Shown one piece after another: positions 1-51,521 of a stretch of DNA of 64,000 bases. The DNA is from Methylomarinum sp. Ch1-1 (lineage in GTDB: Bacteria > Pseudomonadota > Gammaproteobacteria > Methylococcales > Methylomonadaceae). Position 1 is the stretch's first letter. Every line of letters begins with the position of its first letter. The stretch is from assembly GCF_030717995.2 (NCBI RefSeq), contig NZ_CP157743.1, positions 2,320,501 to 2,384,500 of the forward strand. The letters run 5' to 3'. Under the pieces are notes generated by a model, which saw nothing but the letters and a program-made list of their open reading frames with translations, ran no database searches and had not been told where the DNA came from. Made by a program: the position numbers and the translations under genes.

Positions 1-741
1 GAAGATCGCATGCGGTCTTTAATGCCCGATGCAATGCGTAAGCCCCTGTTTGGTTTTCTTGGGCTAGCCTATCCAAAAGCCGATTGGGCGCCGAAAATAT
101 TTCGCGCCAAGTCCACATTGGAATCGATCGGACGGGACTCGCTGGAAGGCTATTTCCACAGCGTTTCGGTCAATTCCAACAGCATCCGTTCGGCCTTGTT
201 CAGCGAAAAACTGAAAAAAGACCTGCAGGGTTACCAAGCCGTCGAGGTATTCAGGCGCCATCAGAAAAATGCCCCTGTTGGCAATGCTCAATCCCTCGTG
301 CAATATTTGGATATCAAAACCTATTTGCCGGGCGATATCCTGACCAAGGTGGATCGGGCCAGCATGGCGCATGCCTTGGAAGTCAGAGTGCCGCTGTTGG
401 ATCATGAGCTGGTCGAATGGATGGCGAGCATGCCGTCAGGATTGAAGCTAAAAAACCGGGAAGGGAAATATATTTTCAAGAAAGGCTTGGAAAAGTATTT
501 ATCCGATGAGATTCTATATCGCCCGAAAATGGGTTTTGCTGTGCCGCTGGCAAGCTGGTTTAAAGGACCGCTTAGAGAGCAGGTCAGAGAGTCCTTGCTC
601 GGGGAAACAATGGCGGGGTGCGGCTTGTTCGATCAGAAATTTTTGACAAGAATGGTCGATCAACACCAAAGCGGGTTAAGGGATTACAGTTCGCCGATCT
701 GGTCGTTGTTGATGTTCGAGTCGTTTTTGGAAAACAGTTAG
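1..741 (+). CDS. Asparagine-synthase-like amidotransferase, C-terminal part (5' end outside window)
   Basis: The reading frame is open from base 1, so the gene begins upstream of the window; the internal ATG at 10 is not a credible start. What remains is the C-terminal part of an asparagine synthetase (ATP-dependent amide transfer) domain, with the conserved stretches LPGDILTKVDRASMAHALEV, VRVPLLDHELVEW and YRPKMGFAVPLASWFKG. The sequence resembles the exosortase A system-associated amidotransferase 1 family (TIGR03108), which sits in exopolysaccharide loci and is thought to amidate a sugar or surface component rather than make free asparagine. The N-terminal glutaminase domain cannot be judged because it is not in the window. 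Confidence 0.9.
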   Translation, partial: EDRMRSLMPDAMRKPLFGFLGLAYPKADWAPKIFRAKSTLESIGRDSLEGYFHSVSVNSNSIRSALFSEKLKKDLQGYQAVEVFRRHQKNAPVGNAQSLVQYLDIKTYLPGDILTKVDRASMAHALEVRVPLLDHELVEWMASMPSGLKLKNREGKYIFKKGLEKYLSDEILYRPKMGFAVPLASWFKGPLREQVRESLLGETMAGCGLFDQKFLTRMVDQHQSGLRDYSSPIWSLLMFESFLENS

Positions 742-930
742 CGTTTTATTATAAAATTGACAATTTACAGTTAAGTTAGGGCTGCATTGCGTACCATCCA
801 TGGAATTGAGTATCTCGAATGCTTGCCCATGGTATGCGATGCCCTAAATTTATCGATTAAAAGATCTCATAAATACTCCGCAGGCTTTCGGTCAGAATAA
901 TCATGGGAAGTCATGAAAATTTTGAACTTT

Positions 931-1034
931 AAGTGATCGGTAATAAGTGCAGTGGTATAAGTCGCCATCCATGACGGCCAACCATGCCGGAATGACGAAG
1001 CTCCTAAAGCCATCTGACTTATTGCTAGGCTCTT
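931..1034 (-). repeat. MITE-like repeat, copy 1 of the AAGTGCCTAG family (inverted)
   Basis: This element accounts for much of the 345-base gap between the amidotransferase and ugd. Its reverse complement matches the elements at 19994-21527 and 23722-23835: a start like AAG(A/T)GCCTAG, a central TTCGTCATTCCGGCATGG, then GTCATGGATGG, and an end TATTACCGATCACTT. The ends are near-inverted (AAGTGATC on one side, GCTAGGCTCTT on the other), as in a small non-autonomous transposable element. No convincing gene is present in the gap. Confidence 0.7.
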
Positions 1035-1086
1035 AATAACGCATTTTTTTAGATAATATTTAAATAACAAATCAGGGATAACTTTA

Positions 1087-2412
1087 ATGAAAGTAACGGT
1101 TTTTGGGTCCGGTTATGTTGGCTTGGTCACGGGAATATGCTTGGCTGAGGCCGGTAACGATGTCGTTTGCATTGATATCGATCAAGACAAAATAGACAAC
1201 CTAAATAAGGCAATCGTCCCGATTTATGAGCCGGGTTTGGACGAGATGCTGAAAGCCAATATGGATGCAGGGCGCGTTAAATTCACCACCAATATAGCGG
1301 AAGCCGTCAATCATGGCACCTTTCAATTTATCGCGGTCGGGACGCCGCCGGATGAGGATGGGGCAGCGGATTTACAATATGTGTTGGCGGTCGCCAAATC
1401 GATCGCGGAACATATGAATGAATACCGTATCATTGTCGATAAATCCACCGTCCCCGTTGGAACGGCCGATAAAGTCAAGCAAGAGATCTTAAGCGTTTTG
1501 CAGCAACGCGGCGTAGAAACCGAATTCGATGTGGTTTCCAATCCGGAATTTCTGAAGGAAGGGGCGGCGATCGAAGACTTCATGAAACCCGACCGTATTG
1601 TCATTGGCACCGATAACCCCAGAACGGCGGAGCTGCTGAAAGTGCTTTACGCGCCATTCAACCGCAGCCATGATCGCGTTATCACGATGGATGTGCGTTC
1701 CGCCGAACTGACCAAGTATGCCGCCAATGCGATGTTGGCGACCAAAATCAGTTTTATGAACGAATTGTCTAATCTAGCCGAACGCTTGGGAGCGGATATC
1801 GAACAGGTCAGAAACGGCATCGGTTCCGACAGTCGCATCGGTTATTCGTTTATTTATCCAGGCTGCGGATATGGTGGCTCCTGTTTTCCGAAAGATGTCA
1901 AGGCGCTGGAAAGAACGGCGCGACAAGTCGGTTATCAGGCGGAATTGCTCAATGCCGTTGAAAACGTCAATAACCGGCAAAAGCACGTCTTAGTCAATAA
2001 AATCAAAAAGCACTATAAAGATGACCTGCAAGGAAAAACCTTTGCCTTATGGGGATTGGCGTTTAAGCCGAAAACGGACGATATGCGGGAAGCGCCGAGT
2101 CGAGTGGTGATCGAGGCATTGATCGAGGCCGGCGCTCAGGTTAGGGCCTATGATCCGGAAGCGATGGACGAAGCCGCGAGGGTTTATGGCAACAAGGCCG
2201 GACTTAGGTTAGCCAGCTCCACCGAAGAGGCCTTAAATGGCGCGGATGCGCTAATCGTCGTGACAGAATGGAAAAACTTCTGGAGCCCGGATTTCGACTT
2301 CATCAAAAAGACATTAAATGATGCGGTGATTTTTGATGGCAGAAACCTATATGACCCACAGCTCCTTAAAAGCAAAGGCATTCGTTATTACGCCATCGGC
2401 AGAGGATTGTAA
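1087..2412 (+). CDS. ugd: UDP-glucose 6-dehydrogenase
   Basis: This enzyme oxidises UDP-glucose twice with NAD+ to give UDP-glucuronate, a precursor for acidic exopolysaccharides. The N-terminal Rossmann motif GSGYVG lies at residues 7-12. The catalytic cysteine is in GGSCFPKD (Cys266), and the family signatures VGTPPDEDG (84-92), KSTVPVGT (119-126) and NPEFLKEG (152-159) are present. At 441 residues it has normal length and all three domains. AGGGA at about 1074-1078 gives a good ribosome binding site for the ATG at 1087. It follows an amidotransferase of an exopolysaccharide locus, in line with supplying glucuronate for the polymer. Confidence 0.97.
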
Positions 2413-2992
2413 AGAAGTTTGTTCGATGTTGGTGTGGGAGAGAATCAGTAAAAGCATTGTTCTTGGTTCAATGCGAATGGCGTCCTTATTGTCAGAAAGT
2501 TATCAGGTTGGATGAGCACATGTTTAGTCGTTAAAGTTCAATTCTCTTCTGGAAGTTGCTCTGTTTGAGCCACCGCTCCCAAAAGACTGCGAAATGAAAA
2601 TTATAAATACTATCGGGCATGACGAATTTCTGTTAGATTGCCCACTACAGCATCATTATTGTAATGTCGAGCAAATGTATTAAAAAATATCTAAGAATTT
2701 ATGCACTTGCCTAAGGAGATAACTCGTCAGAGAAAAATGGACGCTGCACTAGTCATGTGAGGCCGTAAAAATTGAATTTTCTCTCGAATTATTAAGCATT
2801 GCGACAGAGGTTTATCGTTAAAAGCTTGTTTGTTTCGTCATCGTCTCATAGTCGTCCGGCAGCTAGGGACGCGCTAAAGGCGATAACTATAAGCATCCCT
2901 TTAACATGAAATATCCGGGCTAATGCAATTTTTCTCGCCTGAGGGGTAAAGCTTGATACTGTACTTAAGTACAGTTTATATGTTCATTTTAA
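2413..2992. other. Gene-poor intergenic stretch
   Basis: About 580 bases after ugd contain only short unconvincing reading frames. I see no recognisable RNA gene here. The stretch may hold the ugd terminator and decayed sequence. It runs into the MITE-like repeat beginning at 2993. Confidence 0.5.
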
Positions 2993-3179
2993 GTAACTAC
3001 TCACCCCCATTCGTAGAGTGGATAAGCGGAGCGCATCCACACCGGGTCGGCATCTTTGGTGGATGCGCCCTTCAGGTTTATCCACCCTACATGCTGACCG
3101 CTATGGATGGCGGAAATGCCGATTTTGCAGGGAGCAAAAATCGGCCCTGCCGCGTTCGATAAGTGGGGCGAGCAGTTAC
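2993..3179 (+). repeat. MITE-like repeat, long copy of the GTAACTACTC family
   Basis: A 187-base element begins GTAACTACTC and ends GAGCAGTTAC, giving near-perfect terminal inverted repeats. Inside are inverted arms (GTGGATAAGCGGAGCGCATC and, facing it, GATGCGCCCTTCAGGTTTATCCAC) that could fold into a large hairpin. A second copy in the opposite orientation is at 12730-12863. That copy lacks about 50 internal bases present here, which include a near-perfect hairpin GCCGATTTTGC...GCAAAAATCGGC. A short reading frame across this element is not a gene. Confidence 0.8.
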
Positions 3180-3427
3180 ATTTTAATTTTGATATAGTTG
3201 TCTAAACAGATAACTATAGATTTTGATATAAACGGCTGCTCAATATTGATCAGTTGTTTCAGTATCATGGAAAAATGAGCTGTTGTCCGAGATTTGAAGT
3301 TCATGCAATCCTATGTAGGATAGATTTTTAACAGACTAATGAATAGGGCGCGCGCTCAGCTTGTCTAGATTATATGAAAGTGTGGTTTAGGAAAATGTAG
3401 GTTCATAATGACATTCGGGTGAAGAAA

Positions 3428-4006
3428 ATGAACGATATGACACCATCAAAAAAAGATGAAACGGGTTCAGCTGGGAAACTAAACAAAATTTCTGGAAAGC
3501 GGCGCACACTGGTTAAAGGAGCAATGGGAGCGGCGCCTGCAATCCTTACGTTAAGAAGCGGGGCGGCTTTTGCGCTAAACAGTTCGGAAATTTGCAGGAT
3601 CAAGGATGCCTCAAAACAACCGGTGCTGTTGGTGGACGAAGATGATGAGTGGTTGAGAAAACAAGTATGGTGCATTACGCTTTCTTTAGATGGATCGAGT
3701 TTTAAGGTTTACAATCCAGACGATGTCCAAGAAGGTTGGATGCCAGAGGATTTTGGAACTATTGGTGGCGATGGGCTAATAGTTGAGGACACTTACGAAA
3801 AAGTAGGGAATTCTGGAAAAATGAAAAAAACAGGTGGCGATTCTAATGTACAGTATGACGCCACCGTTCCAGCTCAATGTTGGATCCTGTACAGAGTGGA
3901 TAGCGACGGAAGTGTCGTCGGTATTGGCAAGGCCACTGATGATACGTCATATATCACCGACAGTTGTTGGCATTCGGCAAGTCCGGGAGATCAATTGCCT
4001 GATTAA
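3428..4006 (+). CDS. Small exported protein with twin-arginine-like leader, next to PqqD/HprK-like genes
   Basis: I do not recognise a named function. Counted from the GTG at 3419 it has 195 residues. I prefer the ATG at 3428 (192 residues) because GGTGAAG lies just upstream. A lysine-rich start is followed by KRRTLVKG (RR at 28-29 in GTG numbering) and a hydrophobic run APAILTLRSGAAFA ending at a plausible AFA cleavage site, which looks like a Tat signal. The mature part is acidic, with four cysteines (59, 85, 154, 183) and tryptophan-rich spots. It lies 33 bases upstream of the PqqD-like gene, so it could be the substrate or cargo of the cassette that follows. At this length it is not a typical RiPP precursor. 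The function is unknown. Confidence 0.8.
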   Translation: MNDMTPSKKDETGSAGKLNKISGKRRTLVKGAMGAAPAILTLRSGAAFALNSSEICRIKDASKQPVLLVDEDDEWLRKQVWCITLSLDGSSFKVYNPDDVQEGWMPEDFGTIGGDGLIVEDTYEKVGNSGKMKKTGGDSNVQYDATVPAQCWILYRVDSDGSVVGIGKATDDTSYITDSCWHSASPGDQLPD

Positions 4007-4039
4007 ATGATTTAGTGAGGCAATAGTATTTTATACGAC

Positions 4040-4336
4040 ATGTTAGACGATCGGGTATGGACGGTTTCCTGCAATTCACCGATATATTCTGAAAAATGGG
4101 CTGACTTTTTCATTATTTATCATTCATCGTCAGGCGCGACACATCAGTTAAACGGGTTTGCTGGCGAAATATTAACGTTGATTCAAAAACATCCAGTGAC
4201 TCTGAAAGCCTTGCTTAAAGAAATCGAAAAAATTTTTGATGTAGAAAAATATGCTGAGGTTGAGCTGGAAGTCGAAAAAGTGCTCAACGATTTTCATGAA
4301 TTAGGACTGATTGAATCCGTTGGTCGTGAAGGTTAA
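4040..4336 (+). CDS. PqqD-like protein (RiPP recognition element fold), HPr-rel-A system type
   Basis: A 98-residue protein of the PqqD superfamily, small winged-helix-like domains that bind leader peptides in PQQ and other RiPP pathways. Visible family features are a hydrophobic N-terminal half with SSSGATHQLNGFAGEIL, where a small-residue/LNxxA(G)xIL pattern is typical, and a C-terminal helix with VEKVLNDFHELGLIE. It resembles the PqqD family protein that accompanies HprK-related kinase A (TIGR04353 as I recall). Its 3' end overlaps the kinase start by 26 bases, which suggests translational coupling. The substrate is not shown by sequence; the twin-arginine-type protein just upstream is the obvious local candidate. 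Confidence 0.85.
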   Translation: MLDDRVWTVSCNSPIYSEKWADFFIIYHSSSGATHQLNGFAGEILTLIQKHPVTLKALLKEIEKIFDVEKYAEVELEVEKVLNDFHELGLIESVGREG

Positions 4337-5246
4337 GGATATTACATTTGATGCGCTTATTAGCAAAGCGCGAAGCGATGCTGGTTTGTCCTTTGATATA
4401 GGACCCTTTGTGGTAAGACTGCGTACTCAGGATGTAGGCGTCTTACGCAATCTTTCTTTGCTTTATGAAGATTTCGACCTCGCCCAACAATCCTTTGTCG
4501 ATTTTCATGTCGACATGAAGCAACCGGTCGGCTTGCGTCGTTGGTTCAGACCGCAGATTTTGTTTTCCGTTGACGGTCATGATTTGTTTGAGCCTTTTCC
4601 TCTCAGTCATGCCTTGCCGCTTTTTGAGTGGGGATTGAATTGGTGTATCGCGCGCCGGGCACATCAATATTTGATGTTGCATTCGGCGGTTGTCGAAAAA
4701 ATGGGCAAAGCGATCATCTTTCCAGCGTTTCCAGGGGCGGGAAAAAGCACGTTGAGTGCAGCGCTCGGGCGTAGAGGTTGGCGTTTTTTGTCGGATGAAT
4801 TCGGTTTGGTGCGGGCGGAGGATGGCTTGCTTCAACCAATGCCCAGACCGGTACCCCTGAAAAACGAATCGATCCAGGTCATTCGAGAATTTTCATCTAC
4901 TGCGACGATTGGTCCTTTGTTTCCCAAAACTCGGAAGGGCACCGTCGCTCACCTAAAGTCTCCGAGTCCAAGTGTAGACCAATGCAAGCAATTGGCGAAG
5001 CCGGCATTGGTGATTTTTCCTCGATATCAAAAGGATTCTGAAATTTTAATACAAGAGTTGCCGAAGCATTTCGCCTTCGTCAAATTGGCCACTCACGCTT
5101 TTAACTATGAGGTGATGGGATTGACGGGATTCCAGCGGCTTAGGGATATCATCAACTCCTGTTCATGTTACAGCCTTACTTACGGCAATCTGGACGAGGT
5201 CATCGATCGTCTCGATCAACTGATTTCAGCAAGTCATGGTCAATAA
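4311..5246 (+). CDS. HprK-related kinase A
   Basis: A 311-residue protein related to the C-terminal kinase domain of HPr kinase/phosphorylase. The P-loop is FPGAGKST (residues 140-147 from the TTG at 4311), and FLSDEFGLV (159-167) matches the acidic metal-binding site after the P-loop in HprK. A conserved histidine precedes them in LMLHSAVVE. The best start is uncertain: TTG at 4311 with AGGA four bases upstream, or GTG at 4326. Such kinases occur with PqqD-like and nucleotidyltransferase genes in exopolysaccharide loci and in kinase-containing lasso-peptide clusters such as paeninodin. The target here is unknown. The gene overlaps its upstream neighbour by 26 bases and its downstream neighbour by 11. 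Confidence 0.88.
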   Translation: MNPLVVKVKDITFDALISKARSDAGLSFDIGPFVVRLRTQDVGVLRNLSLLYEDFDLAQQSFVDFHVDMKQPVGLRRWFRPQILFSVDGHDLFEPFPLSHALPLFEWGLNWCIARRAHQYLMLHSAVVEKMGKAIIFPAFPGAGKSTLSAALGRRGWRFLSDEFGLVRAEDGLLQPMPRPVPLKNESIQVIREFSSTATIGPLFPKTRKGTVAHLKSPSPSVDQCKQLAKPALVIFPRYQKDSEILIQELPKHFAFVKLATHAFNYEVMGLTGFQRLRDIINSCSCYSLTYGNLDEVIDRLDQLISASHGQ

Positions 5247-6369
5247 GTCTTTGAATGCACAAAAGTTATTGCTTGCTGCATTAACTCGACCGGAAAGCTG
5301 CGGGCAATTAAAACCTAAAGAATGGGAACAGCTAATTCGTTGCGCTCGACCGGCTAAGCTCGTCGCCGCTCTTGGTTCCAAGTTCGCACAAACTGGGCTT
5401 CGGCAAACGATGCCTCGGCAAGCGCTAGACAATTTCTATGCGGCGCAAAAACTGGTTGAATATCGGCAGCGTTTGGCGATGTGGGAGCTGAACAGAATCG
5501 CTAAAGCCCTGGCAGGACTCGATGTCAATATCGTGGTTTTAAAAGGCGGCGCCTATCAATTGCTGAAGCTTGACATGGCGGAGGGCCGCTCTGTTTCTGA
5601 TATCGATATTTTGGTTGCCAAAAAAGATATTGAGCGTGTTGAGCAATGCCTGACTGGTCAGGGTTGGCAAACAGCTAAACTCGATGACTATGATCAGCAT
5701 TATTACCGAACCTGGATGCATGAAATTCCACCGTTACGGCATCGAGATCGTTTTATCGAGGTCGATATTCATCATACCATTTTGCCGCTGACCAGCCGGC
5801 TGCACCCAGAGCCGGAAACGCTATTAAAAGATGCCGTTGAGGTTGCGCAATGTGACTTTAAAGTGCTTGCTCCCTGCGATATGGTGCTGCATAGCGCCGT
5901 CCATTTATTTTACGATGCCGAATTGAATGCCGGTGATTTCAGGGATTTGGTGGATTTGCATGAACTTCTGACATTATTTGGAGGACAGATCGAGGGCTTT
6001 TGGGACAAGCTAATTATGAGAGCTGATGAACTAGAATTAGAGCGTCCTCTATATTACGCACTTTACTTTTCTAGCAAGCTGCTTAAAACACCAATTCCAG
6101 TACACCTGATAACAAGACACAAGGGTCGGCCCGCAGGCATTGTGAGGTTATTAATGGAGTATCTGGCGCCGCTTGCGCTGTTACCCGAAAATCCCGATTA
6201 TCCGAGTCAAAAAGTGGCATTTGCCAGGTGGTTGCTTTATGTTCGGTCTCATTATCTGCGTATGCCGTTAACTTTATTGTTGCCGCATTTGATGAAGAAA
6301 AGTAAGAAACGCTTGAAACAAAGAAGCATTGATAATTTAACCAATCAAGATCAATCCGATAGCGCTTGA
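5236..6369 (+). CDS. Nucleotidyltransferase family protein (PF14907 type)
   Basis: A 377-residue protein with the nucleotidyltransferase-fold signature VLKGGAYQLL (residues 101-110) followed by RSVSDIDILV (118-127). GG and the D-x-D pair are the nucleotide- and metal-binding residues of the family. The remaining two thirds contain HTILPLTSRLHPEPE and HSAVHLFYDAEL, typical of the uncharacterised nucleotidyltransferases that travel with HprK-like kinases. The start overlaps the kinase stop by 11 bases, so the three genes at 4040-6369 form a coupled unit. The modified substrate is unknown; in kinase-type lasso clusters a comparable protein is thought to act on the phosphorylated peptide. Confidence 0.87.
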   Translation: MVNKSLNAQKLLLAALTRPESCGQLKPKEWEQLIRCARPAKLVAALGSKFAQTGLRQTMPRQALDNFYAAQKLVEYRQRLAMWELNRIAKALAGLDVNIVVLKGGAYQLLKLDMAEGRSVSDIDILVAKKDIERVEQCLTGQGWQTAKLDDYDQHYYRTWMHEIPPLRHRDRFIEVDIHHTILPLTSRLHPEPETLLKDAVEVAQCDFKVLAPCDMVLHSAVHLFYDAELNAGDFRDLVDLHELLTLFGGQIEGFWDKLIMRADELELERPLYYALYFSSKLLKTPIPVHLITRHKGRPAGIVRLLMEYLAPLALLPENPDYPSQKVAFARWLLYVRSHYLRMPLTLLLPHLMKKSKKRLKQRSIDNLTNQDQSDSA

Positions 6370-6617
6370 GGCAATTATATATTTGAAAACATTGGCGAAA
6401 TAGTCAAATAGTTTTTGTTTATAAAAAGTCGCGTGAAGTTCGCTTTGCAACACCAATGTTAGGAGCGACGCCCTCGTCGATAGTAGAGGTTTAGTTACGG
6501 CATGATATTTATTCCGGAGAGTATTTTCGTTGCCTTTTTGTGTTAATGTGTTAATTGCTGAGGTCAGTTTTGTTCTTTAACCGGAGCGGGAAACGCTCTG
6601 GAGAGCTAAAAATAACT

Positions 6618-7820
6618 ATGAAAATTCTCCATATATTGGATCATTCCATTCCGTTACATAGCGGCTATACCTTCAGAACCCGGGCTATATTAGAAGAACA
6701 AAGAAAGCTGGGTTGGGAGACCTTTCATGTGACATCTGCCAAACATAATGCGACGAAAAAGCCGATGGAAGAAGTAGATGGTTTGATTTTTTATCGGTCA
6801 GAACAACCGGCGGTTATCTATTCCAAAATACCATTCATCAACCAGTGGGCGATCGTTAAGTCGCTGTCGAAACGGTTGGATGAAATCATCCCGGAAATCA
6901 AACCCGATATTCTTCATGCCCATTCGCCGGCATTGAATGGCTTAGCGGCCCTATCGGCCGCAAAAAAACACCAGATTCCGTTGGTTTATGAATGCCGGGC
7001 CTTTTGGGAAGATGCGGCGGTTGATCACGGTACGACTCGTGAAGGAAGTCCGCGTTACCGCATTACTCAAGCCTTGGAAACTAAGGTGTTCAAAAAAGCC
7101 AACGCCATCACGACGATATGCGAAGGCCTGCGCAAGGATATCGTGAGCCGTGGCATAGCGGAAGACAAGGTGACGGTCATTCCCAATGCGGTCAACATCG
7201 ATAAGTTTAGCTATGGCGCTGAGGCGGATCAATCGTTACGCCGGGAATTGGGATTGAACGATAAAATCGTTTTGGGTTTTATCGGTTCTTTCTATGCCTA
7301 TGAAGGGATTCCATTGTTGCTGGAGGCCTTACCCAAAATATTGGCAGAAAGCCCCAATGTCTGTTTGCTACTGGTTGGCGGCGGGCCCCAAGAAACGCTG
7401 ATCAGGGAAAAAACGGCTCAGCTAGGGCTTGAAAAACAGGTTATCTTCACTGGCCGAGTGCCGCATGATCGCGTGCAAGATTATTACAACCAAGTTGATA
7501 TATTTGTTTATCCACGTCTGTCGATGCGCTTGACCGATTTAGTCACTCCGCTGAAACCGTTAGAAGCCATGGCGCAAGGTCGTTTAGTCGTTGCCTCCGA
7601 TGTTGGCGGGCATAAGGAGTTGATTAAGCATGAACAGAATGGATGTTTGTTTAAGGCGGGTAATGTTGATAGTTTGACTCAAGAACTAATCAAGCTGTTG
7701 CAGAATAGGAATGTTTGGGAGACGCTACAAAGGAATGGACGTAATTTTGTTGAGCAAGAAAGGAATTGGCAAAAAAGCGTTGGTTATTATCAACATGTTT
7801 ATCCAAAATTGATTGATTAA
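6618..7820 (+). CDS. Glycosyltransferase family 4, XrtA/PEP-CTERM system-associated (TIGR04063-like)
   Basis: A retaining GT-B glycosyltransferase that probably adds a sugar to the lipid-linked polysaccharide at the inner face of the membrane. The N-terminus MKILHILDHSIPLHSGYTFR is characteristic of the exosortase A-associated family. The donor-binding half contains IGSFYAYEGIPLLLEA and the E-x7-E-type motif LKPLEAMAQGRLVVASDVGG. I start it at the ATG at 6618, preceded by GGAGAG, rather than at the in-frame upstream start at 6555, which adds 21 unconserved residues. This gives 400 residues, normal for the family. The next glycosyltransferase follows after 4 bases. Confidence 0.93.
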   Translation: MKILHILDHSIPLHSGYTFRTRAILEEQRKLGWETFHVTSAKHNATKKPMEEVDGLIFYRSEQPAVIYSKIPFINQWAIVKSLSKRLDEIIPEIKPDILHAHSPALNGLAALSAAKKHQIPLVYECRAFWEDAAVDHGTTREGSPRYRITQALETKVFKKANAITTICEGLRKDIVSRGIAEDKVTVIPNAVNIDKFSYGAEADQSLRRELGLNDKIVLGFIGSFYAYEGIPLLLEALPKILAESPNVCLLLVGGGPQETLIREKTAQLGLEKQVIFTGRVPHDRVQDYYNQVDIFVYPRLSMRLTDLVTPLKPLEAMAQGRLVVASDVGGHKELIKHEQNGCLFKAGNVDSLTQELIKLLQNRNVWETLQRNGRNFVEQERNWQKSVGYYQHVYPKLID

Positions 7821-7824
7821 AACC

Positions 7825-8943
7825 ATGACTCTAAAAGAGGATGCATTGAACATCGGCCTGATTGGCCCGCTGCCTCCACCTTTTGGTGGCATGGCTAACC
7901 AAACTAAACAGTTATATAAACTCTTACAAGGTGAAGGGATTCAGGTTACATTGGTGCAAACTAATGCTCCTTATCGATACAAAATAATCGAAAAGATAAG
8001 GGGGCTAAGAGCTTTATTTCGCATTGTTCCCTATCTGAACAATTTGTGGAGAGTAACAGCAAAGGTGGATATTCTGCATGTATTGGCTAATTCCGGTTGG
8101 TCCTGGCAGTTGTTTGCCGTGCCTGTTATTTGGATAGGGTGGATTAAAAAAAAACCGGTCATAATAAATTATCGAGGCGGGGAAGCGAGAAATTATTTTG
8201 AAAAATCCATACAATGGATCCGTCCCTCAATGAACAAAGCTTCAATTATTATTGTTCCCTCGGGATACTTGAAACATGTCTTTGCAGATTTTGGTTTTAA
8301 ATCCGAAGTCATTCCAAATATTATTAATCTGGAACGTTTTTCCCCAAGAGACAAAGGAGGGAAGCGTAAAGAAACTCCTCACCTTATCGTAACGCGAAAT
8401 TTGGAAGCTATTTATGGAATTAAAACAGCAATCGAAGCAGTTGCAATATTGAAACAATCACACCCCCGGATTAAATTATCGATTGCTGGTAGCGGACCGC
8501 AAAAAGAAGAGTTACATCAACTTATTCTTAAACTAGGACTTGAGGATAATGTTGTTTTTACGGGTAAATTGACGCCCATCGAAATAGCGGAACTGTATCA
8601 ATCAGCGGATATCATGCTTAATCCAACGACTGTGGATAATATGCCTAATTCGGTTCTCGAAGCTATGGCAAGTGGTGTACCCATAGTTACAACCGATGTC
8701 GGCGGTATACCTTATATAGTCAAGGACGGTGAAACCGCTTTAATGGCAAAAGTGAATGAAGCCGAATCAATGGCAAATCAAATAAAAAGATTATTAAATG
8801 ATCCTTTATTGTGTGAAACATTAATTACCAATGGGTTGCAGCAGGTTCAGCAATATACCTGGTCGAAAGTAAAATGTCAGTGGCTTGCTCTTTATCATTC
8901 TTTTGTTAATCATCCTGGCGAGATAGCATTACGAGATGAGTAG
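7825..8943 (+). CDS. Glycosyltransferase family 4
   Basis: A 372-residue GT-B protein. The N-terminal glycine loop is GPLPPPFGGMANQ (from residue 14) and the donor-site motif is NSVLEAMASGVPIVTTDVGG. An ATG at 7825, four bases after the preceding stop, is preferred to an in-frame TTG at 7813 that overlaps the upstream gene. The acceptor and the sugar cannot be read from the sequence. It is co-directional with, and almost touching, the preceding glycosyltransferase, so the two are very likely co-transcribed. The gene is noticeably richer in A and T than its left neighbour. Confidence 0.9.
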   Translation: MTLKEDALNIGLIGPLPPPFGGMANQTKQLYKLLQGEGIQVTLVQTNAPYRYKIIEKIRGLRALFRIVPYLNNLWRVTAKVDILHVLANSGWSWQLFAVPVIWIGWIKKKPVIINYRGGEARNYFEKSIQWIRPSMNKASIIIVPSGYLKHVFADFGFKSEVIPNIINLERFSPRDKGGKRKETPHLIVTRNLEAIYGIKTAIEAVAILKQSHPRIKLSIAGSGPQKEELHQLILKLGLEDNVVFTGKLTPIEIAELYQSADIMLNPTTVDNMPNSVLEAMASGVPIVTTDVGGIPYIVKDGETALMAKVNEAESMANQIKRLLNDPLLCETLITNGLQQVQQYTWSKVKCQWLALYHSFVNHPGEIALRDE

Positions 8944-9025
8944 GCTACACCTTGAAAATATCTTTTAGCCATCGAGCTCAATGCAATTTACGATTATTTT
9001 ATAAAGATTAATGAAGGTTGAAAAA

Positions 9026-10828
9026 ATGGGATTTATTGCGGGTTGGGTTGAAACGACTATTGACTATCAAAACAACGCACCGTTATGCCAGGATATCATT
9101 GAAAAAATTACCAAGAAACATCGCGGTCAATACAGCAAAAAAATGGATTCCTTTGTGGTGTGCGCCGCCCCTCATGGACAGCTTATCGAAACGGACGGTT
9201 GGTTATGTGCGGTTTCCGACGCTGATCATGGCCAACGGAGTCAGTTAAGGGAGAAAATTTCAAGGTACCAGGATATGGGGGAAAGCTGCCTTCCAACTAT
9301 AATGGGGAAAGGCGCCCTGGCATTGGCCGATCTGAATAACAGAAGATTGATTCTGGCGACCGACCCTATCGGGCAGACCAATCTTTATTATGCCGAAACG
9401 AAAAGCGGTCTCGTATTCGGTTCGAGCGCTGATAGTGTGATCGAACACCCGGAAGTCAATGCGGAGATATCCCCCCAAACGATTTACGACTATGTTTATT
9501 TCCATCATTGCCCTAGCCCAAATACTATTTATAAACAGGTCAAAAAACTAGAGGGTGGTCAGGTTCTGGTTTATCAGAACGGAAAAATACAAATCAGCCA
9601 TTACTGGTTACCCGAGTTTTCCGAGCAAGCGATTTCGGTAGAAGAAGCTGGGCAGCAGTTGATGCAAATGATTGACGACTCTGTAAAGGATTTGTCCAGT
9701 TCGGCTGAAGAAACGGGGGCTTTTTTAAGTGGTGGTCTGGACAGCTCGACTGTTGCCGGCGCCTTGGCCAATGCTTTTCCTGGGGGAGCGAAAACCTTTT
9801 CCATCGGTTTTCCTGTCGAAGGTTACGATGAAATAGACTATGCGCGTATCGCGGTCGACCATTTTAAAACCAAGGCGCATGAATATTATGTCACCCCGGA
9901 TGATACGGTAGCTGCGATACCTAAGATCGCGGCTTATTATGACGAGCCGTTCGGCAATTCATCAGCGTTGGCCGCCTACTATTGCGCTAAAATGGCCAAG
10001 GAAAATGGTATTAAGGTACTGTTAGGAGGGGATGGAGGAGATGAGATATTTGCCGGCAATGAACGCTATGCCAAACAATTGCTGTTTCAGAAATATTACC
10101 AAATTCCTGGTTTAGCCAGGCAGGTTCTGAAAACAGGGCTTTATCACGCTCCAGACATCTTCCTAAAAAATAAAATCATCTTCAAGGCAAAGCGTTATGT
10201 GGAACAAGCCGAAGTACCACTACCCGATCGTTTGCAGGATTATAATTATTTAAACCGGCATCCAGCTGAAGAGATCTTCGCGGAAGATTTTTTACAGGAA
10301 ATCAATGCCGAGTCTCCGCTGCAGACTCTAAGGGATTGCTATAACCGGCCGATGCAAGCCTCTGCACTGAATCGTATGCTCTATATGGACTGGAAAACAA
10401 CGTTACATGACAATGACTTGGTCAAAGTCAATAGAATGTGTGAAATGGTCGGTGTCGATGTGCAATATCCCTTATTAAGCCAAGCGATTGTCGAGTTATC
10501 CTGCAGAATTCCTTCGAACGATAAATTGAAAGGTCAACAATTGCGTTGGTTTTATAAGCGAGCGATGCGGGATTTTTTGCCCAAGCCTATTATCAATAAA
10601 TCCAAGCATGGTTTCGGATTACCTTTCGGAATTTGGTTAAAAGATCATCAACCGCTGAAAGAGCTCGCATATGACAGCATTAATTCATTAGCTAAGCGTG
10701 GTTATTTTCGTAAAGAGTTTTTTGATCATGCTATCAACATGCATCAGAGCATCCATGCCGCTTATTACGGCGAATTAATATGGATATTGATGATGCTTGA
10801 GTTATGGCTGCAAGGGAAAGACAAATGA
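9026..10828 (+). CDS. Asparagine-synthase-like protein lacking the glutaminase cysteine
   Basis: A class II amidotransferase-plus-synthetase protein of about 600 residues. The ATP pyrophosphatase loop SGGLDSS is intact (240-246 counted from the upstream ATG at 9011), as are LLGGDGGDEIFAGNERY and NKSKHGFGLPFGIWLK. The N-terminus, however, reads MGFIAGWV where active glutaminase domains have MCGIAGWV, so the nucleophilic Cys2 is missing. I prefer ATG 9026 because AAGG lies 9 bases upstream and because this puts the first residues in register with the family. Loss of the cysteine is typical of lasso-peptide cyclases and other amidotransferases that no longer use glutamine. Its closeness to PqqD-, HprK- and nucleotidyltransferase-like genes raises a peptide-modifying role; amidation of a sugar is the alternative. 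Confidence 0.9.
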   Translation: MGFIAGWVETTIDYQNNAPLCQDIIEKITKKHRGQYSKKMDSFVVCAAPHGQLIETDGWLCAVSDADHGQRSQLREKISRYQDMGESCLPTIMGKGALALADLNNRRLILATDPIGQTNLYYAETKSGLVFGSSADSVIEHPEVNAEISPQTIYDYVYFHHCPSPNTIYKQVKKLEGGQVLVYQNGKIQISHYWLPEFSEQAISVEEAGQQLMQMIDDSVKDLSSSAEETGAFLSGGLDSSTVAGALANAFPGGAKTFSIGFPVEGYDEIDYARIAVDHFKTKAHEYYVTPDDTVAAIPKIAAYYDEPFGNSSALAAYYCAKMAKENGIKVLLGGDGGDEIFAGNERYAKQLLFQKYYQIPGLARQVLKTGLYHAPDIFLKNKIIFKAKRYVEQAEVPLPDRLQDYNYLNRHPAEEIFAEDFLQEINAESPLQTLRDCYNRPMQASALNRMLYMDWKTTLHDNDLVKVNRMCEMVGVDVQYPLLSQAIVELSCRIPSNDKLKGQQLRWFYKRAMRDFLPKPIINKSKHGFGLPFGIWLKDHQPLKELAYDSINSLAKRGYFRKEFFDHAINMHQSIHAAYYGELIWILMMLELWLQGKDK

Positions 10829-10965
10829 TTATTCAACTTATGAGTGTAAATTAAGTTAGCCGCTCCCCTGTTGCAGCATTGACGTTCTTATTCATAACTT
10901 AATATGACTATGAATTAACCACAGATGACTTTGACTCTGGCTATGGTTCAAGGGTAAGCACACAT

Positions 10966-11103
10966 CGTTATACACAAATTGCGGGATGTCTTAAATTTGT
11001 GTAGGTTGAGTTGAATAAAATGAAGCCCAACAAATTGAGGCGCGCCGGAAATGTTGGGCTTCTCTATCGCTCAGCACAACCTAAGACATACTTGTGCATA
11101 ACG
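10966..11103. repeat. MITE-like palindromic element (CGTTATACACAA ends)
   Basis: The 583-base gap between the asparagine-synthase-like gene and the ligase contains no convincing gene. It holds an element bounded by CGTTATACACAA (10966-10977) and its near-complement TTGTGCATAACG (11092-11103). Nested inside are inverted arms GTAGGTTGAG/CAACCTAAG and GAAGCCCAACA/TGTTGGGCTTC. The outer ends match those of the element at 52034-52184. The right end runs directly into a tandem octamer array. Confidence 0.65.
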
Positions 11104-11136
11104 GCATAACGGCATAACGGCATAACGGCATAACGG
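11097..11136. repeat. Tandem octamer CATAACGG x5
   Basis: Five perfect head-to-tail copies of CATAACGG. The first copy overlaps the right end of the palindromic element (GTGCATAACG), so the array looks like slippage amplification of that terminus. No function is implied. Confidence 0.9.
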
Positions 11137-11411
11137 CAAGTAATAAGCCATATGTTTACGCGCTTTGCGATAGAAAGTTCGTTAAACAGTGTTCTGTAGC
11201 AATAATAAATAAAATACCGGATCGAGAGCCAATTAATCCCTGCATTTATGGGCTGCCTTCCAATCAAAAACATCAGGCCGTTAGCACAAGACAACTGTCT
11301 GAAATATCGTTATTACCATAAAAGGTATTCCAAATTGGTTCTAGGATCTATTGTCATGTCTCAATCTTCGAAAAATAATATACACGCAATTTCTAATAAA
11401 TTGCCTCTAGC

Positions 11412-12707
11412 ATGAGAGATATATTTGTCACACTAGTTGTTTTTGGCACGCTTCCCTTTATTTTGCAGCGTCCATACATTGGTATTCTTTTGTGGGAATG
11501 GCTGGGTTATATGAATCCGCATAAACTTTCATGGGGATTCGCACATGATTTTCCGTTCGCACAAATTACAGCGATTACCATATTAATTAGCATGTTTCTT
11601 TCTAAAGAACCTAAAAACATACCGTGGACGATAGAAACGCGTGTGCTCATGCTTTTTATAATCTGGATGTTTGTTACTACCATATTCTCGATGTATCCGG
11701 CTTTTGCATGGATGCAATGGGATAAAGTGTGGAAAATACAACTGATGACCTTTGTCACAATTATTCTGATGCAAAGCAAATGGCGAGTTCAGGCCATGAT
11801 TTGGGTTACGGCTTTATCGATTGGTTTCTACGGGTTTAAAGGAGGAATCTTCACCATCCTCACGGGAGGCAGTTATGCTGTATACGGCCCCAGTGGAACG
11901 TTCATTTATGGGAATAACGAAATTGGTTTGGCGTTGATCATGGTGATCCCGTTGATACGATATTTGCAATTAACAACCGACAATAATTTTCTCCGCCAGG
12001 GACTGCTAATCACTATGTGGCTATGTGTGATTTCAGTTATCGGTACTCAGTCGAGAGGCGCTTTAGTGGGACTTAGCGTTATGGGGATGTTTTTAATCAT
12101 AAAAAGCCGGAAGAAGTTTTTTTTGATTCTGCTGGTGATTATTTTAATGCCCGCAATTTTTAATTTTATGCCCGAATCCTGGCATAGCCGAATGAGTACC
12201 ATACAGTCTTATGAAAACGATGCATCCGCCATGGGCCGAATCAATGCCTGGTGGATGGCTTATAATTTGGCTAAAGATAATTTTTTTGGTGGCGGCTACG
12301 AATGCTTTATATATCCTAGTTTTGTTTTATATGCGCCAAATCCCAGGGACGCACATGATGCCCATAGCATTTATTTCGAAGTGCTGGGGGAGCATGGTTT
12401 TATTGGCTTGAGTCTATTCCTGTTATTGGGGATGTTGACATTGCATTCGGCTAGAAAGATTATTAAGGAGGCGAAACAATTTGAAGAAACAAAGTGGATG
12501 TCCGATCTGGCTGCTATGCTGCAAGTGAGTTTAATCGGATATGCTGCTTCCGGGGCTTTTTTAGGATTGGCTTATTTCGACTTATACTATCATATGGTTG
12601 CAATAATAGTTATTTGTAAGGTCTTGTTATCAAAGCAACAATTGGAATCTTCTCAACAGGACATGAAAAATAATTATCGGGTTAATGCATTAAAGGCCGA
12701 AATTTAG
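11412..12707 (+). CDS. Putative O-glycosylation ligase / O-antigen polymerase, exosortase A system-associated
   Basis: A 431-residue polytopic inner-membrane protein with about ten hydrophobic segments. It resembles TIGR03097 (putative O-glycosylation ligase, exosortase A-associated), a branch of the Wzy/WaaL superfamily. The N-terminus FILQRPYIGILLWEWLGYMN and the internal VIGTQSRGALVGL and DAHDAHSIYFEVLGEHGFIG are typical; the last corresponds to the conserved His-containing periplasmic loop. It probably polymerises or transfers lipid-linked glycan on the periplasmic side. A MITE-like element begins 22 bases after its stop. Whether it acts on protein or on polysaccharide is not decided by the sequence. 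Confidence 0.9.
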   Translation: MRDIFVTLVVFGTLPFILQRPYIGILLWEWLGYMNPHKLSWGFAHDFPFAQITAITILISMFLSKEPKNIPWTIETRVLMLFIIWMFVTTIFSMYPAFAWMQWDKVWKIQLMTFVTIILMQSKWRVQAMIWVTALSIGFYGFKGGIFTILTGGSYAVYGPSGTFIYGNNEIGLALIMVIPLIRYLQLTTDNNFLRQGLLITMWLCVISVIGTQSRGALVGLSVMGMFLIIKSRKKFFLILLVIILMPAIFNFMPESWHSRMSTIQSYENDASAMGRINAWWMAYNLAKDNFFGGGYECFIYPSFVLYAPNPRDAHDAHSIYFEVLGEHGFIGLSLFLLLGMLTLHSARKIIKEAKQFEETKWMSDLAAMLQVSLIGYAASGAFLGLAYFDLYYHMVAIIVICKVLLSKQQLESSQQDMKNNYRVNALKAEI

Positions 12708-12729
12708 AATTTATAAGCTTGAAATAAAC

Positions 12730-12863
12730 GTAACTGCTCGCCCCACTTATCGAACGCGGCAGGGCATGTAGGGTGGATAAGCCTGAAGGGCGCATCCACC
12801 AAAGATGCCGACCCGGTGGATGCGCTCCGCTTATCCACCCTACGAATGGGAGTGAGTAGTTAC
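12730..12863 (-). repeat. MITE-like repeat, short inverted copy of the GTAACTACTC family
   Basis: The reverse complement matches the element at 2993-3179 nearly base for base, except that about 50 internal bases are absent. Both ends are kept (GTAACTGCTCG at 12730, GAGTAGTTAC at the right end). It ends 21 bases before the next start codon, so the promoter or leader of the downstream gene may include it. The short reading frame across it is not a gene. Confidence 0.8.
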
Positions 12864-12884
12864 AAATAAACAATAATTAGACTG

Positions 12885-14123
12885 ATGACTTTAATGTTGA
12901 CCGCTATTTTAGTAGCAAGTTGGTTTTTTATTTGGTGCTTTATCATCATTGGTCGTTACCGCAATGAGATTGCTTCATACTGGAAAGAGCCGGTTTTAAA
13001 ATTTCCGGTATTGATATTCGAAAGCGACGATTGGGGGGCGGGCCCTTTAATTCAATTTCGCTCGTTAGCTCGAATTAGTTCAATACTGAGCAAATATGTC
13101 GATAAATATGAACATCATCCGGTGATGACAATAGGAGTGGTGCTGTCTGTTCCGGATAGCGAAAAAATCAGGCAAGCGGAATTTAAAAAATATAAAGAAA
13201 TACGACTCGATCATCCGGTTTTCTCTCCGATAAATAAAGCCTTGATCGATGGCTTAGACCAAGGTGTGTTTGATTTGCAGTTACATGGAATGGCGCATTA
13301 CTGGCCTGATAATCTAATGCGTGCGTTAGTTTCAGATGAGCAGATTCGGCATTGGCTGGACCAGGATAAGTTTCCTCAAACCGAAACGCTTCCGTCCGTG
13401 TTGCAAAGCCGATGGGTAAATGCTGAACAATTGCCGACATCGCCTTTAAGTCAAGATGAAATCGATAAGGCGGTTGATGAAGAAGTCGGTTTTTTTAAAC
13501 AGCTATTCGGTTTCTATCCTAAGGTAGCGGTGCCGCCTACATTTGTTTGGGATCTATCGGTAGAAAGAAGCTGGAAGCGCCATAATATTGAATATCTGGT
13601 TACGCCGGGACAATGTTTCAATGGTCGAGATAAAGAAGGCAAGCCTAATGGAGCACGTCAAAAAATTGTCAATGGACAATTATCTGATTCCGGCTTAATT
13701 TATATGGTAAGAAACGATTATTTTGAACCTAGCCTTGGACATACATCCGATATGGCGATCAATACGTTGATGAAAAATACAGAATTAGGCCAGCCGACAC
13801 TGTTAGAAACTCATCGTTTTAATTTTATTCAGGATGATGACGCAACGAAAAATGCAATAGCGGAATTGGAGAAAGTAATTTCCGGAGCGCTTGCAAAATA
13901 CCCTGAACTCATGTTTTTATCGACTCATGAGTTAGCCGATAAGCTGGCGTCGAAAAATGAAAACTTTATAGAGCGTTCCTTTGGCGCCCGCTTGTTCGTC
14001 TGTATGGATAGATTGTGGGCTAATCAATCGATCAAAAAATGGTTGTACATCAGCGGATTATTTGTTCCGCTTCTTCTCTTTTTAAACGTACGCAAAAAAA
14101 CATGGAATCAAAGAATGTACTAG
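12885..14123 (+). CDS. Membrane-anchored polysaccharide-deacetylase-like protein
   Basis: A 412-residue protein with an N-terminal transmembrane anchor (residues 3-23), a large soluble domain and a second hydrophobic segment near the C-terminus (about 381-397). The domain starts with PVLIFESDDWG, whose Asp48-Asp49 correspond to the metal/catalytic Asp pair of NodB-type deacetylases. LQLHGMAHYW supplies histidines 134 and 138 for the metal. VAVPPTFVWD and LLETHRFNF look like later active-site motifs. This placement in the glycoside hydrolase/deacetylase superfamily is by motif only; the substrate is unknown. It overlaps the next glycosyltransferase by 22 bases. Confidence 0.75.
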   Translation: MTLMLTAILVASWFFIWCFIIIGRYRNEIASYWKEPVLKFPVLIFESDDWGAGPLIQFRSLARISSILSKYVDKYEHHPVMTIGVVLSVPDSEKIRQAEFKKYKEIRLDHPVFSPINKALIDGLDQGVFDLQLHGMAHYWPDNLMRALVSDEQIRHWLDQDKFPQTETLPSVLQSRWVNAEQLPTSPLSQDEIDKAVDEEVGFFKQLFGFYPKVAVPPTFVWDLSVERSWKRHNIEYLVTPGQCFNGRDKEGKPNGARQKIVNGQLSDSGLIYMVRNDYFEPSLGHTSDMAINTLMKNTELGQPTLLETHRFNFIQDDDATKNAIAELEKVISGALAKYPELMFLSTHELADKLASKNENFIERSFGARLFVCMDRLWANQSIKKWLYISGLFVPLLLFLNVRKKTWNQRMY

Positions 14124-48696: not shown

Positions 48697-49500
48697 ATGA
48701 ATAGAACTTTAAGCTGGGAACGCAATATTTTATGGCTGTTGACGTCGGCCTTAGCGGCGATTTCTCTTCTGATCATGGGAGAAGAGGCTAGCGCCGAGCA
48801 AAGTTTAGTTGCTACACTGGATGATATTAAACCAGGGATCGTCGCCGTCGGCACTTATATGCCTAAACGCTCTCCTAGGGCGCAGTTCAGGGGGACGGGA
48901 TTTGCTATCGGTAATGGCCGCTTGGTGGTGACCAATGCCCATGTTTTGCCGGAGTCACTGCAAGTGGAAAGGCGGGAGCGTATTGCCGTGTTTATCAAGA
49001 AAAACGGCAGAGATTCTCTATACTATGCGAAAGAAGTCGCCGTCGATACGAGTCATGATGTTGCGGTGTTAAAACTTGATAAGGGTTCGTTGACTCCTTT
49101 AAAGTTAAGCGGGAAGGATGTCAGAGAGGGGGAGTTATACGCCTTCACCGGTTATCCGATCGGCATGGTGCTGGGGCTTTATCCGGTCACCCATCGGGGC
49201 ATCATTTCGGCGATCAGCCCGGTCGCGATACCGATGATCAATTCCAGTCAGTTGAACGCAAAAGTCATGAAGAGATTGCGCGCTCCCTATAATGTCTATC
49301 AATTGGATGCGACCGCCTATCCCGGCAATAGCGGCAGTCCCTTGTATCACCTGCAAACCGGGGAGGTCATCGGCATTATCAATAAGGTTTTCGTCAAGGA
49401 GAGCAAGGAAAATGTGTTGTCCAAACCCAGCGGCATCAGTTATGCAATACCGATCGTTCATTTACGCAATCTATTGAAAGACAAAGGATTACTACAATAA
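48697..49500 (+). CDS. Trypsin-like serine protease (S1C-type), exported
   Basis: A 267-residue protein with an N-terminal membrane segment or signal (about 11-27, likely cut near ASAEQ). The chymotrypsin-fold triad is visible: His82 in VVTNAHVLP, Asp121 in TSHDVAVLKLD and Ser214 in YPGNSGSPLYHL. There is no PDZ domain, unlike DegP/DegQ. It lies 11 bases upstream of the initiating sugar transferase and is probably co-transcribed with it, so it may process a component of the exopolysaccharide machinery. Confidence 0.9.
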   Translation: MNRTLSWERNILWLLTSALAAISLLIMGEEASAEQSLVATLDDIKPGIVAVGTYMPKRSPRAQFRGTGFAIGNGRLVVTNAHVLPESLQVERRERIAVFIKKNGRDSLYYAKEVAVDTSHDVAVLKLDKGSLTPLKLSGKDVREGELYAFTGYPIGMVLGLYPVTHRGIISAISPVAIPMINSSQLNAKVMKRLRAPYNVYQLDATAYPGNSGSPLYHLQTGEVIGIINKVFVKESKENVLSKPSGISYAIPIVHLRNLLKDKGLLQ

Positions 49501-51100: not shown

Positions 51101-51292
51101 TCAATCGAGTTTCTGGTTGGGCCAGGGCGTGAAGGCAAGTTGCAGGCAGATTAGCAATAAACCGATGCCGGGTAGGAAGACCAGGCCAGCCCACCAGGGG
51201 TTCAGACCGGCGCGGTTATAGATTACGATCGCAGGAACCACAATCATCAGTCCCACAATGACTATGCGCAGCATTTCGGTGAAGAGAAACAT
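51101..51292 (-). CDS. Small membrane protein, tandem paralogue
   Basis: A 63-residue protein from the ATG at 51292 with two helices (EMLRIVIVGLMIVVPAIVIY and WWAGLVFLPGIGLLLICLQL). The frame stays open for another 830 bases upstream through repeat DNA, but that part is low-complexity and not coding. GLN-x-x-W and the TPWP ending align with the neighbouring 62-residue protein. The pair probably arose by tandem duplication. Confidence 0.68.
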   Translation of the reverse strand: MFLFTEMLRIVIVGLMIVVPAIVIYNRAGLNPWWAGLVFLPGIGLLLICLQLAFTPWPNQKLD

Positions 51293-51386
51293 ATCGAGTC
51301 CCGTTTTTTTTGTTTGCTGGATACAGCAAATAGTAATCGTTGCAAACGATAAGGGCAATGTTTTTAGATGAAATGCGGCAGTAGTT

Positions 51387-51521
51387 CGTAGGGTAGTTTC
51401 GCGTAGGGTGGCTTCGCGTAGGGTGGCTTCGCGTAGGGTGGCTTCGCGTAGGGCGGCTTCGCGTAGGGCGGCTTCGCGTAGGGCGGCTTCGCGTAGGGCG
51501 GCTTCGCGTAGGGTGGCTTCG
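51387..51521. repeat. Nine tandem 15-base units (CGTAGGGTGGCTTCG)
   Basis: Perfectly phased 15-base units differ only at one or two positions (GGGTAG, GGGTGG, GGGCGG variants). A period of 15 keeps one frame open on each strand, which produces the spurious LREA-type protein repeats. The unit is half of the palindromic REP motif scattered elsewhere in the window, so the array is a local amplification of one REP arm. Confidence 0.9.

Follow-up and report, generated by a model that had tools for sequence, protein, structure and literature searches.

A putative leader-guided protein-modification cassette in an exosortase-type polysaccharide region of Methylomarinum sp. Ch1-1

The stretch of DNA analysed here, called the window in the following, comprises 64,000 nucleotides from Methylomarinum sp. 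Ch1-1 (contig NZ_CP157743.1; G000:C2:2320501-2384500, where G000 is the window's own genome of 4.77 Mb). Near its beginning, four genes in a row encode a small exported protein, a PqqD-family protein, an HprK-related kinase and a nucleotidyltransferase. We consider it probable that they form a leader-guided protein-modification cassette with the product of 3428-4006 as substrate, the PqqD protein as recognition protein, and the HprK-type kinase and the NTP_transf_5 enzyme as the catalysts. This reading is favoured because the neighbourhood is conserved, leader and kinase co-occur in genomes, leader-PqqD pairs are found away from a kinase, one and the same leader stands before differing mature parts, and the catalytic residues are intact. 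The trio of PqqD, kinase and nucleotidyltransferase has already been named by NCBI; new are the putative substrate family with the leader that characterises it, the PqqD copies that are paired with it or remote, and the fact that an asparagine-synthase-like gene further downstream is likely to be separate from the system. The features on which the argument rests are the following (RRE, RiPP recognition element; RiPP, ribosomally synthesized and post-translationally modified peptide; Tat, twin-arginine translocation):

3428-4006 (+): small exported protein of 192 amino acids, class A, putative substrate (open reading frame, homologues, position, alignment A2, predicted model)
3497-3574 (+): conserved leader resembling a Tat signal, putative site of PqqD/RRE binding (alignment A3, genome survey, statistics)
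4040-4336 (+): PqqD-family peptide chaperone with RRE fold, TIGR04353 PqqD_rel_X (profile score, alignment A6)
4311-5246 (+): HprK-related kinase A, TIGR04352 (profile score, alignment A4)
5236-6369 (+): nucleotidyltransferase-fold protein, PF14907 NTP_transf_5 (Pfam match, alignment A5)

The small gene runs from an ATG at 3428 to 4006 (a GTG at 3419 is likewise open) and stops 33 bases before the PqqD gene, whose frame overlaps that of the kinase, which in turn overlaps the nucleotidyltransferase gene. The first start codon of the kinase frame is TTG, with an alternative GTG at 4326. PqqD and kinase are the NCBI "HPr-rel-A system", both proteins scoring over the curated cut-offs (TIGR04353, 62.3 bits versus 35; TIGR04352, 382.1 bits versus 200), and the nucleotidyltransferase matches PF14907 with E=5e-56. 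In the small protein, which no Pfam or NCBIfam model matches, the leader comprises residues 24-49 approximately (KRRTLVKGAMGAAPAILTLRSGAAFA); Ser52 and Cys56 stand just past it, and the C-terminal region contains T-x-S-C-x-x-S (Ser179, Cys180, Ser183). A preliminary description, made from the letters of the window, had named these four genes and an asparagine-synthase-like one lacking Cys2; all five are present as judged from open reading frames and profile scores, as are the overlaps between kinase and nucleotidyltransferase and between the PqqD and kinase frames.

The conservation of the unit was followed in the window and in 80 loci around kinase relatives (the best 80 of 269 confirmed relatives; 81 loci altogether), the hosts of the 80 being mostly proteobacterial according to record titles. 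Gene calls in the loci were made with iterated family profiles. The nucleotidyltransferase is found in 81 of 81 loci, in 80 of them on the same strand as the kinase, and PqqD in 78, the remaining three ending at contig ends before or inside its place. Of the 78 loci whose sequence extends over the respective position, 77 have the small exported protein beside the trio. In 73 of these it is a readable frame just upstream of PqqD, the gap between the two being variable; in the other four it is at a contig start (L075), cut by contig ends (L038, L110) or on the opposite strand behind the nucleotidyltransferase (L076). Its length is 130-300 amino acids approximately, except for that of L079 (85 amino acids) and for the split gene of L035. 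In the latter locus, from a methanotrophic symbiont of Bathymodiolus, the leader gene is divided at 8820-9720 into two frames (76 and 178 amino acids), either a broken gene or a sequencing error. Another 32 kinase loci (L120-L151) were chosen by hand from the 61 kinase-positive genomes of the survey described below, partly for the absence of a leader match, and 30 of them have a leader protein beside PqqD or kinase, that of L124 being recognised by its C-terminal signature alone.

The leader has the approximate consensus [KR]RRx[FL]x[KR]xxxxAxPV[IL][LM]TLxSxxxxA, followed by a Cys within a few residues; it has the look of a twin-arginine signal, the motif standing before a hydrophobic segment with an AxA-like end. 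By script RR was counted in 71 of 73 leaders, in a set whose initial selection itself required [RK]R; of the two others L087 has KR, and in L079 the position was mis-picked and RRR is present. Of 67 leader proteins only one attained E<=0.01 with the general NCBIfam model TAT_signal_seq, and none had a Pfam match at that threshold. No lipobox was seen at the first Cys on reading the leader protein sequences, and a lipoprotein identity was therefore set aside. TatC is present in the genome.

A leader profile was built from alignment A3 (n=57, from related loci including the window's own; A1 has n=67, and near-identical and some other members were dropped from these alignments). With it 398 genomes of the phylum were surveyed, 61 of which hold the kinase over its cut-off, and up to 18 candidates were scored per genome. 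At E<=1e-4 the leader was found in 32 genomes, 31 of them among the 61 that are kinase-positive, the exception being G151 (Fisher P 5e-28, uncorrected for relatedness, as are the other association tests for phylogeny). In 25 of the 31 the best leader lies no more than 2.5 kb from the kinase. At this threshold no leader came up in the remaining 30 kinase-positive genomes, although inspection of the locus showed the protein in several of them. Two leader matches in longer proteins away from the system (L118 and L119, in G006 and G151) were set aside, since they look like ordinary Tat signals or chance. In a distance test leader and kinase covary beyond the other genes (partial r 0.34, P 0.001). 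Both the near-constant adjacency to the trio and the way in which the leader tracks the kinase through the genomes support the suggestion of the preliminary description that this may be a distinct modification system acting on a peptide or on the product of 3428-4006, the latter being the likely target.

PqqD_rel_X was over its cut-off in 52 of the 398 genomes, 49 of them kinase-positive (exceptions G001, G052 and G086). Five fetched stretches (L112, L114, L115, L116, L117) carry a leader protein beside PqqD and have no kinase on the stretch, and all five PqqDs exceed the curated cut-off. One of these pairs (L112) belongs to the same genome as the kinase locus L131. In G268, conversely, kinase and nucleotidyltransferase are found on another contig without PqqD. 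Because of these kinase-less pairs and of the PqqD-less contig of G268, leader protein and PqqD belong together, and kinase and nucleotidyltransferase are probably able to act in trans. A second PqqD-like match in the window's genome, sub-threshold with 31.3 bits, is located in a 767-amino-acid frame at G000:C2:4045570-4045767 (-).

Behind the one leader the mature parts differ, those of class A, to which the window's protein belongs, being predicted to be beta-rich and those of class B helical. Class A proteins, of which 35 were selected by their C-terminal motif, have [ST]CxxS near the C-terminus, and in 30 of the 35 the first Cys behind the leader has a Ser at position -4; the assignment of L083 to this class is probably false. 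Invariant in alignment A2 (n=16) are M1, R25, R26, P37, A49, S52, C56, S179, C180 and S183. Class B is marked by C...SG..SG and, near the C-terminus, by a Thr that is invariant in the 28 sequences aligned; these (A7) were chosen by appearance, and the invariant columns reflect that choice. The predicted class B model is alpha-helical with a block mean pLDDT (predicted local distance difference test) of 87-97 over residues 81-210. Searches for solved structures related to the mature proteins gave nothing significant in either class (best E 0.079 and 5.4).

The top solved relatives of the PqqD family profile are the lasso RREs TbiB1 (5v1u, E=1.6e-4) and TfuB1 (6jx3, E=0.005). In the kinase the P-loop reads PGAGKST, and His124, Lys145, Asp162 and Glu163 (numbered from 4311) are invariant in the 34 aligned sequences; in the nucleotidyltransferase Lys-Gly, a DxD and a third Asp (Asp122, Asp124, Asp177) are invariant in 32 of 32, both alignments (A4, A5) being length-filtered subsets. 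The window kinase alone gave no match against PDB sequences; the match came with the family profile, which found the HPr kinase structures 1jb1 and 2qmh (E=0.002, P-loop segment only). For the nucleotidyltransferase there was no solved relative by sequence. As far as can be judged from sequence, residue conservation fits a working RRE-guided kinase and nucleotidyltransferase.

The closest known systems are the linear polyphosphorylated peptides (LPPs) of Bacillota (PMC13381572) and the phosphorylated lasso peptides. According to the main text of the former article, RRE, HprK-like kinase and NTP transferase occur together in capsule loci, LppK phosphorylates Ser3 of the core, and the cluster peptidase requires the RRE (PMC13381572). 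The likeness to the window is considerable: a discrete RRE is combined with an HprK-like kinase and an NTP transferase in the absence of a lasso cyclase (PF14907 does not appear in that main text); LPP precursors have a conserved N-terminal part and a variable remainder (35-200 amino acids), and their clusters are found in polysaccharide loci; and the modified Ser of the tested LPP stands just after the leader, as does the conserved Ser of class A (PMC13381572). There are also differences. The LPP leader is YxxPxVLxHQ, whereas here it is a twin-arginine leader sharing only Px[VI]L with it, and neither A2 nor A3 has a conserved Tyr/Trp three before the Pro, so that the leaders fall outside the YxxPxVLxHQ definition. 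LPP clusters have a SipW-like leader peptidase and an MsbA-like exporter, stated to be restricted to Bacillota (PMC13381572); a scan of the eleven window genes from 10 to 14120 found neither. Furthermore, the mature proteins here are larger and their hosts mostly proteobacterial, and the main text of PMC13381572 contains none of the words Proteobacteria, Pseudomonadota, exosortase, twin-arginine and Gram-negative.

Phosphorylated lasso peptides (paeninodin, pseudomycoidin) share with the window an RRE and an HprK-like kinase, some of them also a nucleotidyltransferase, and it is a Ser that is modified, the phosphate of which may carry a hexose; PadeK acts on a Ser at the C-terminus, and a role in adding hexose to phospho-Ser is attributed to PsmN (PMC9266682). 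Rumen lasso clusters contain nucleotidyltransferase and HPr kinase genes as well (PMC7533575). Here, in contrast, there is no B2 protease in the genome and no linked cyclase, and the putative substrate is a full-size exported protein. The NCBIfam model names of the HPr-rel-A system, which both proteins fit, give no substrate, and in the literature searched we found neither a use of the name "HPr-rel-A" nor anything on the leader protein family.

The cassette is envisaged to work as follows. In the cytoplasm PqqD would, as an RRE-like adaptor, bind the hydrophobic Tat-like leader of the small protein and present the protein to the kinase, which would place one or more phosphates on conserved Ser/Thr; candidate acceptors in class A are the Ser at position -4 from the first Cys behind the leader (Ser52 in the window) and, at the other end of the protein, those of the [ST]CxxS motif. 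By analogy with PsmN, the nucleotidyltransferase might then transfer a nucleotide or a sugar onto the phosphate. Judged by analogy with the known systems, the kinase most likely acts on a Ser/Thr of the leader protein, which the nucleotidyltransferase then caps. Twin-arginine motif, AxA-like end and genomic TatC suggest that the product would be exported via Tat and the leader cut by ordinary signal peptidase, and Tat export would suit a protein that has been modified and folded in the cytoplasm. Judging only from the gene neighbourhood, the product would probably serve the exopolysaccharide of the surrounding locus. One can go further and propose that PqqD holds the Tat signal as a RiPP-type leader until the folded protein is phosphorylated and capped and then releases it to Tat, that the capped phosphate is an acceptor for the exopolysaccharide of the surrounding locus, and that the small protein would thereby become a phosphoglycan-linked anchor joining the cell surface to the matrix, several unrelated mature domains having come to stand behind the same leader. 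In this full form the proposal is quite unlikely to hold. Even the simpler marking of a surface protein with phosphate, and perhaps a sugar, seems to be undescribed so far in polysaccharide-making bacteria.

Several observations weigh against the cassette. A C-terminal rule applied to 99 leader proteins (omitting L035, L038, L075, L076, L079, L110, L120, L122, L124, L126, L127, L137, L140 and L141) yields 35 with [ST]CxxS (class A), 31 with [FYI][LFI]xxT (class B) and 33 with neither, and because one third are without either signature, a C-terminal acceptor cannot be universal. The predicted class A model, beta-rich, is of low confidence (mean pLDDT 62.7). No leader protein is found next to PqqD in L042, the 1 of 78 loci mentioned above, or in L130 among the 32 hand-chosen loci, and in L113 no PqqD was recognised along with the leader protein. 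In those 32 loci the PqqD profile is blank in 7 (L131, L138, L139, L143, L147, L148, L150) and the nucleotidyltransferase profile in 2 (L136, L137); in L138 and L143 inspection by eye shows a frame resembling PqqD in the interval from leader gene to kinase. The distance test found no covariation of leader and PqqD beyond that with other genes (partial r 0.008, P 0.41), PqqD being short and the test weak either way. The recognition motif [YW]xxP of lasso peptides and LPPs is incomplete: the leaders here are without its aromatic residue, and many of class B also lack the Pro. In the Bacillota system, according to the main text, LppN made no detectable difference in the heterologous test (PMC13381572). 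Finally, the modification itself is a prediction from sequence.

The preliminary description had seen in the region a parts list resembling that of a lasso peptide, with an asparagine-synthase-like gene as a member of the system. Between this gene and the trio lie two glycosyltransferases:

9026-10828 (open from 9011): asparagine-synthase-like protein, Cys2 absent, ATG start, beginning with M-G-F-I-A-G-W

Its product scores 302 bits with the XrtA/PEP-CTERM amidotransferase model TIGR03108 (cut-off 816.9) and, also lacking Cys2, lies outside that family as defined; the lasso-cyclase model NF033535 fits less well (154.4 bits versus a cut-off of 525). To the Cys2-bearing XrtA type of L031 it is 29.6% identical. 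Close relatives are found in 7 of the 81 loci (window, L033, L034, L035, L037, L039, L084), and Cys2 is missing in all seven. Distant relatives in L068, L081, L088 and L107 (partial in the latter two) are encoded on the opposite strand, 8-10 kb past the kinase, and are 45-47% identical to the window's protein and 26-29% to the Cys2-bearing XrtA type; that of L081, counted from its likely start, has Cys as the fifth residue and not as the second. In none of these 11 loci does the gene adjoin the trio. Among 110 genomes an N-terminal profile (E<=1e-30) detected it in G000 and G102 only of the 61 that are kinase-positive and in 0 of 49 that are exosortase-positive and kinase-negative; the profile is narrow and blind to the distant type, so that the survey undercounts, and with numbers this small it does not amount to a co-occurrence test. 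In G102 about 378 kb separate the gene, which has a Cys at position 5, from the kinase; the neighbour of the gene there is a TIGR03098-like exosortase-A ligase that scores 466 bits on a truncated stretch (cut-off 592). In L132-L135, L142 and L149 an asparagine-synthase-type gene overlaps the 3' end of the nucleotidyltransferase gene as a fifth operon gene. These six look like ordinary amidotransferases, because all start with MCG (Cys2 present).

A lasso-like pathway, in which the asparagine-synthase-like enzyme cyclises a PqqD-recognised peptide that kinase and nucleotidyltransferase tailor, is highly improbable and already largely refuted. The kinship of the PqqD profile to lasso RREs, the lack of Cys2 in all seven close relatives and the bits obtained with the cyclase model speak for it, as do the 11 of 81 loci whose wider surroundings hold a close or distant relative; against this, the enzyme nowhere adjoins the trio, has its best score with the XrtA amidotransferases, and is remote from the kinase in G102. 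Moreover, a search of the whole genome for the B2 protease (PF13471, Transglut_core3) gave no match at E<=0.001, and the conserved upstream product is with the two exceptions given no short precursor, short unannotated open reading frames not having been searched for. Both the lasso peptide with a Cys-less cyclase and the asparagine-synthase-like gene as a partner of the trio were rejected on these grounds, the latter despite the sharing of the wider locus; the gene most likely belongs with the surrounding exosortase-A/polysaccharide genes. The preliminary description had itself allowed that the link would be coincidental if homologues clustered with ordinary exosortase-associated sugar amidotransferases and not with the other three genes: the arrangement in G102 bears this out, whereas elsewhere the gene does share the wider locus with the trio.

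Tat signal chaperones (redox enzyme maturation proteins, REMPs, such as TorD and DmsD) are small cytoplasmic proteins encoded beside their twin-arginine substrate. PqqD resembles them in being encoded beside a twin-arginine protein, but PqqD/RRE is not of the TorD family and comes with a kinase and a nucleotidyltransferase. It is conceivable, though somewhat unlikely, that PqqD is only such an export chaperone, the leader protein a Tat-exported matrix protein that travels with the trio, and that kinase and nucleotidyltransferase act on a sugar nucleotide, a lipid-linked glycan or a regulator. The leader-PqqD pairs without a nearby kinase and the lack of leader-PqqD covariation beyond other genes would be in keeping with this, and 40 of the 52 loci of at least 15 kb (from the 80) hold at least one of seven polysaccharide-type families; however, in the 12 loci without a recognised polysaccharide gene the four genes are still together and in order in 10, the exceptions being L042 (no leader protein) and L048 (nucleotidyltransferase on the other strand), and the equivalent Bacillota kinase modifies an RRE-bound precursor, as stated in the main text of PMC13381572. 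Very unlikely is a regulatory system with an HPr-like or some other signalling protein as the target of the kinase and with the small protein as a sensor in the envelope. The P-loop domain does resemble that of HPr kinase (1jb1, 2qmh), and a family that looks response-regulator-like (named by look only) is found within 10 kb in 17 of 81 loci. The resemblance, however, covers the P-loop segment only, the whole length scoring as HprK_rel_A, and the regulator family is, unlike the leader protein, absent from most loci, a weak argument in that the recurring families were not scanned for HPr.

As to the surroundings of the cassette, the window lies in an exosortase-A type polysaccharide region, with an exosortase gene (G000:C2:2298400-2299149) that precedes the window by about 21 kb. 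The window itself contains a TIGR03097 ligase and glycosyltransferases of TIGR04063 and TIGR03013, all over cut-off, and 10-741 encodes the end of an XrtA amidotransferase of the ordinary kind, the partial protein scoring 371 bits with TIGR03108. Exosortase PF09721 was over cut-off in 32 of 61 kinase-positive versus 49 of 337 other genomes, several of the 29 negatives being incomplete assemblies; an obligate dependence on exosortase was rejected, the enzyme being enriched yet absent from these 29. Beside the TIGR03013 sugar transferase, 48697-49500 (+) encodes an exported trypsin-like protease (PF13365), relatives of which occur in 22 of the 80 loci and often start about 2.6 kb before the kinase; it is possibly a periplasmic processing enzyme or simply a polysaccharide-locus gene. 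Between 1087-2412 and the small gene, a stretch at 2980-3110 that by eye is rich in inverted repeats looks like a REP-type (repetitive extragenic palindromic) element; over 2300-6700 Rfam gave only a sub-threshold naRNA4 match at 2980-3110 on the minus strand (28.8 bits versus a gathering cut-off of 59.5). The small transposase encoded at 61973-62518 (-), which we take to resemble REP-associated tyrosine transposases, would fit this repeat. A transposase-like open reading frame, IS4-type by look, lies at 20088-21413 (-) between polysaccharide genes, and the frames at 51101-52123 (-), made up of short repeated units (LREAA / AKPPY) between coding genes, are probably repeat DNA and not genes.

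With a concrete substrate family that has its own leader and no specific existing model, the system can be tested at once in cultured carriers, which include Haliea salexigens DSM 19537 (L108, class A) and Rugamonas rubra ATCC 43154 (L100, class B). If the modification is confirmed, recognition of the RiPP type would no longer be confined to short peptides but would include larger proteins bearing a Tat-type signal, the LPP and phospholasso chemistry of Gram-positive bacteria would gain a Gram-negative counterpart tied to exopolysaccharide, and the NTP_transf_5 enzymes would gain a likely acceptor.

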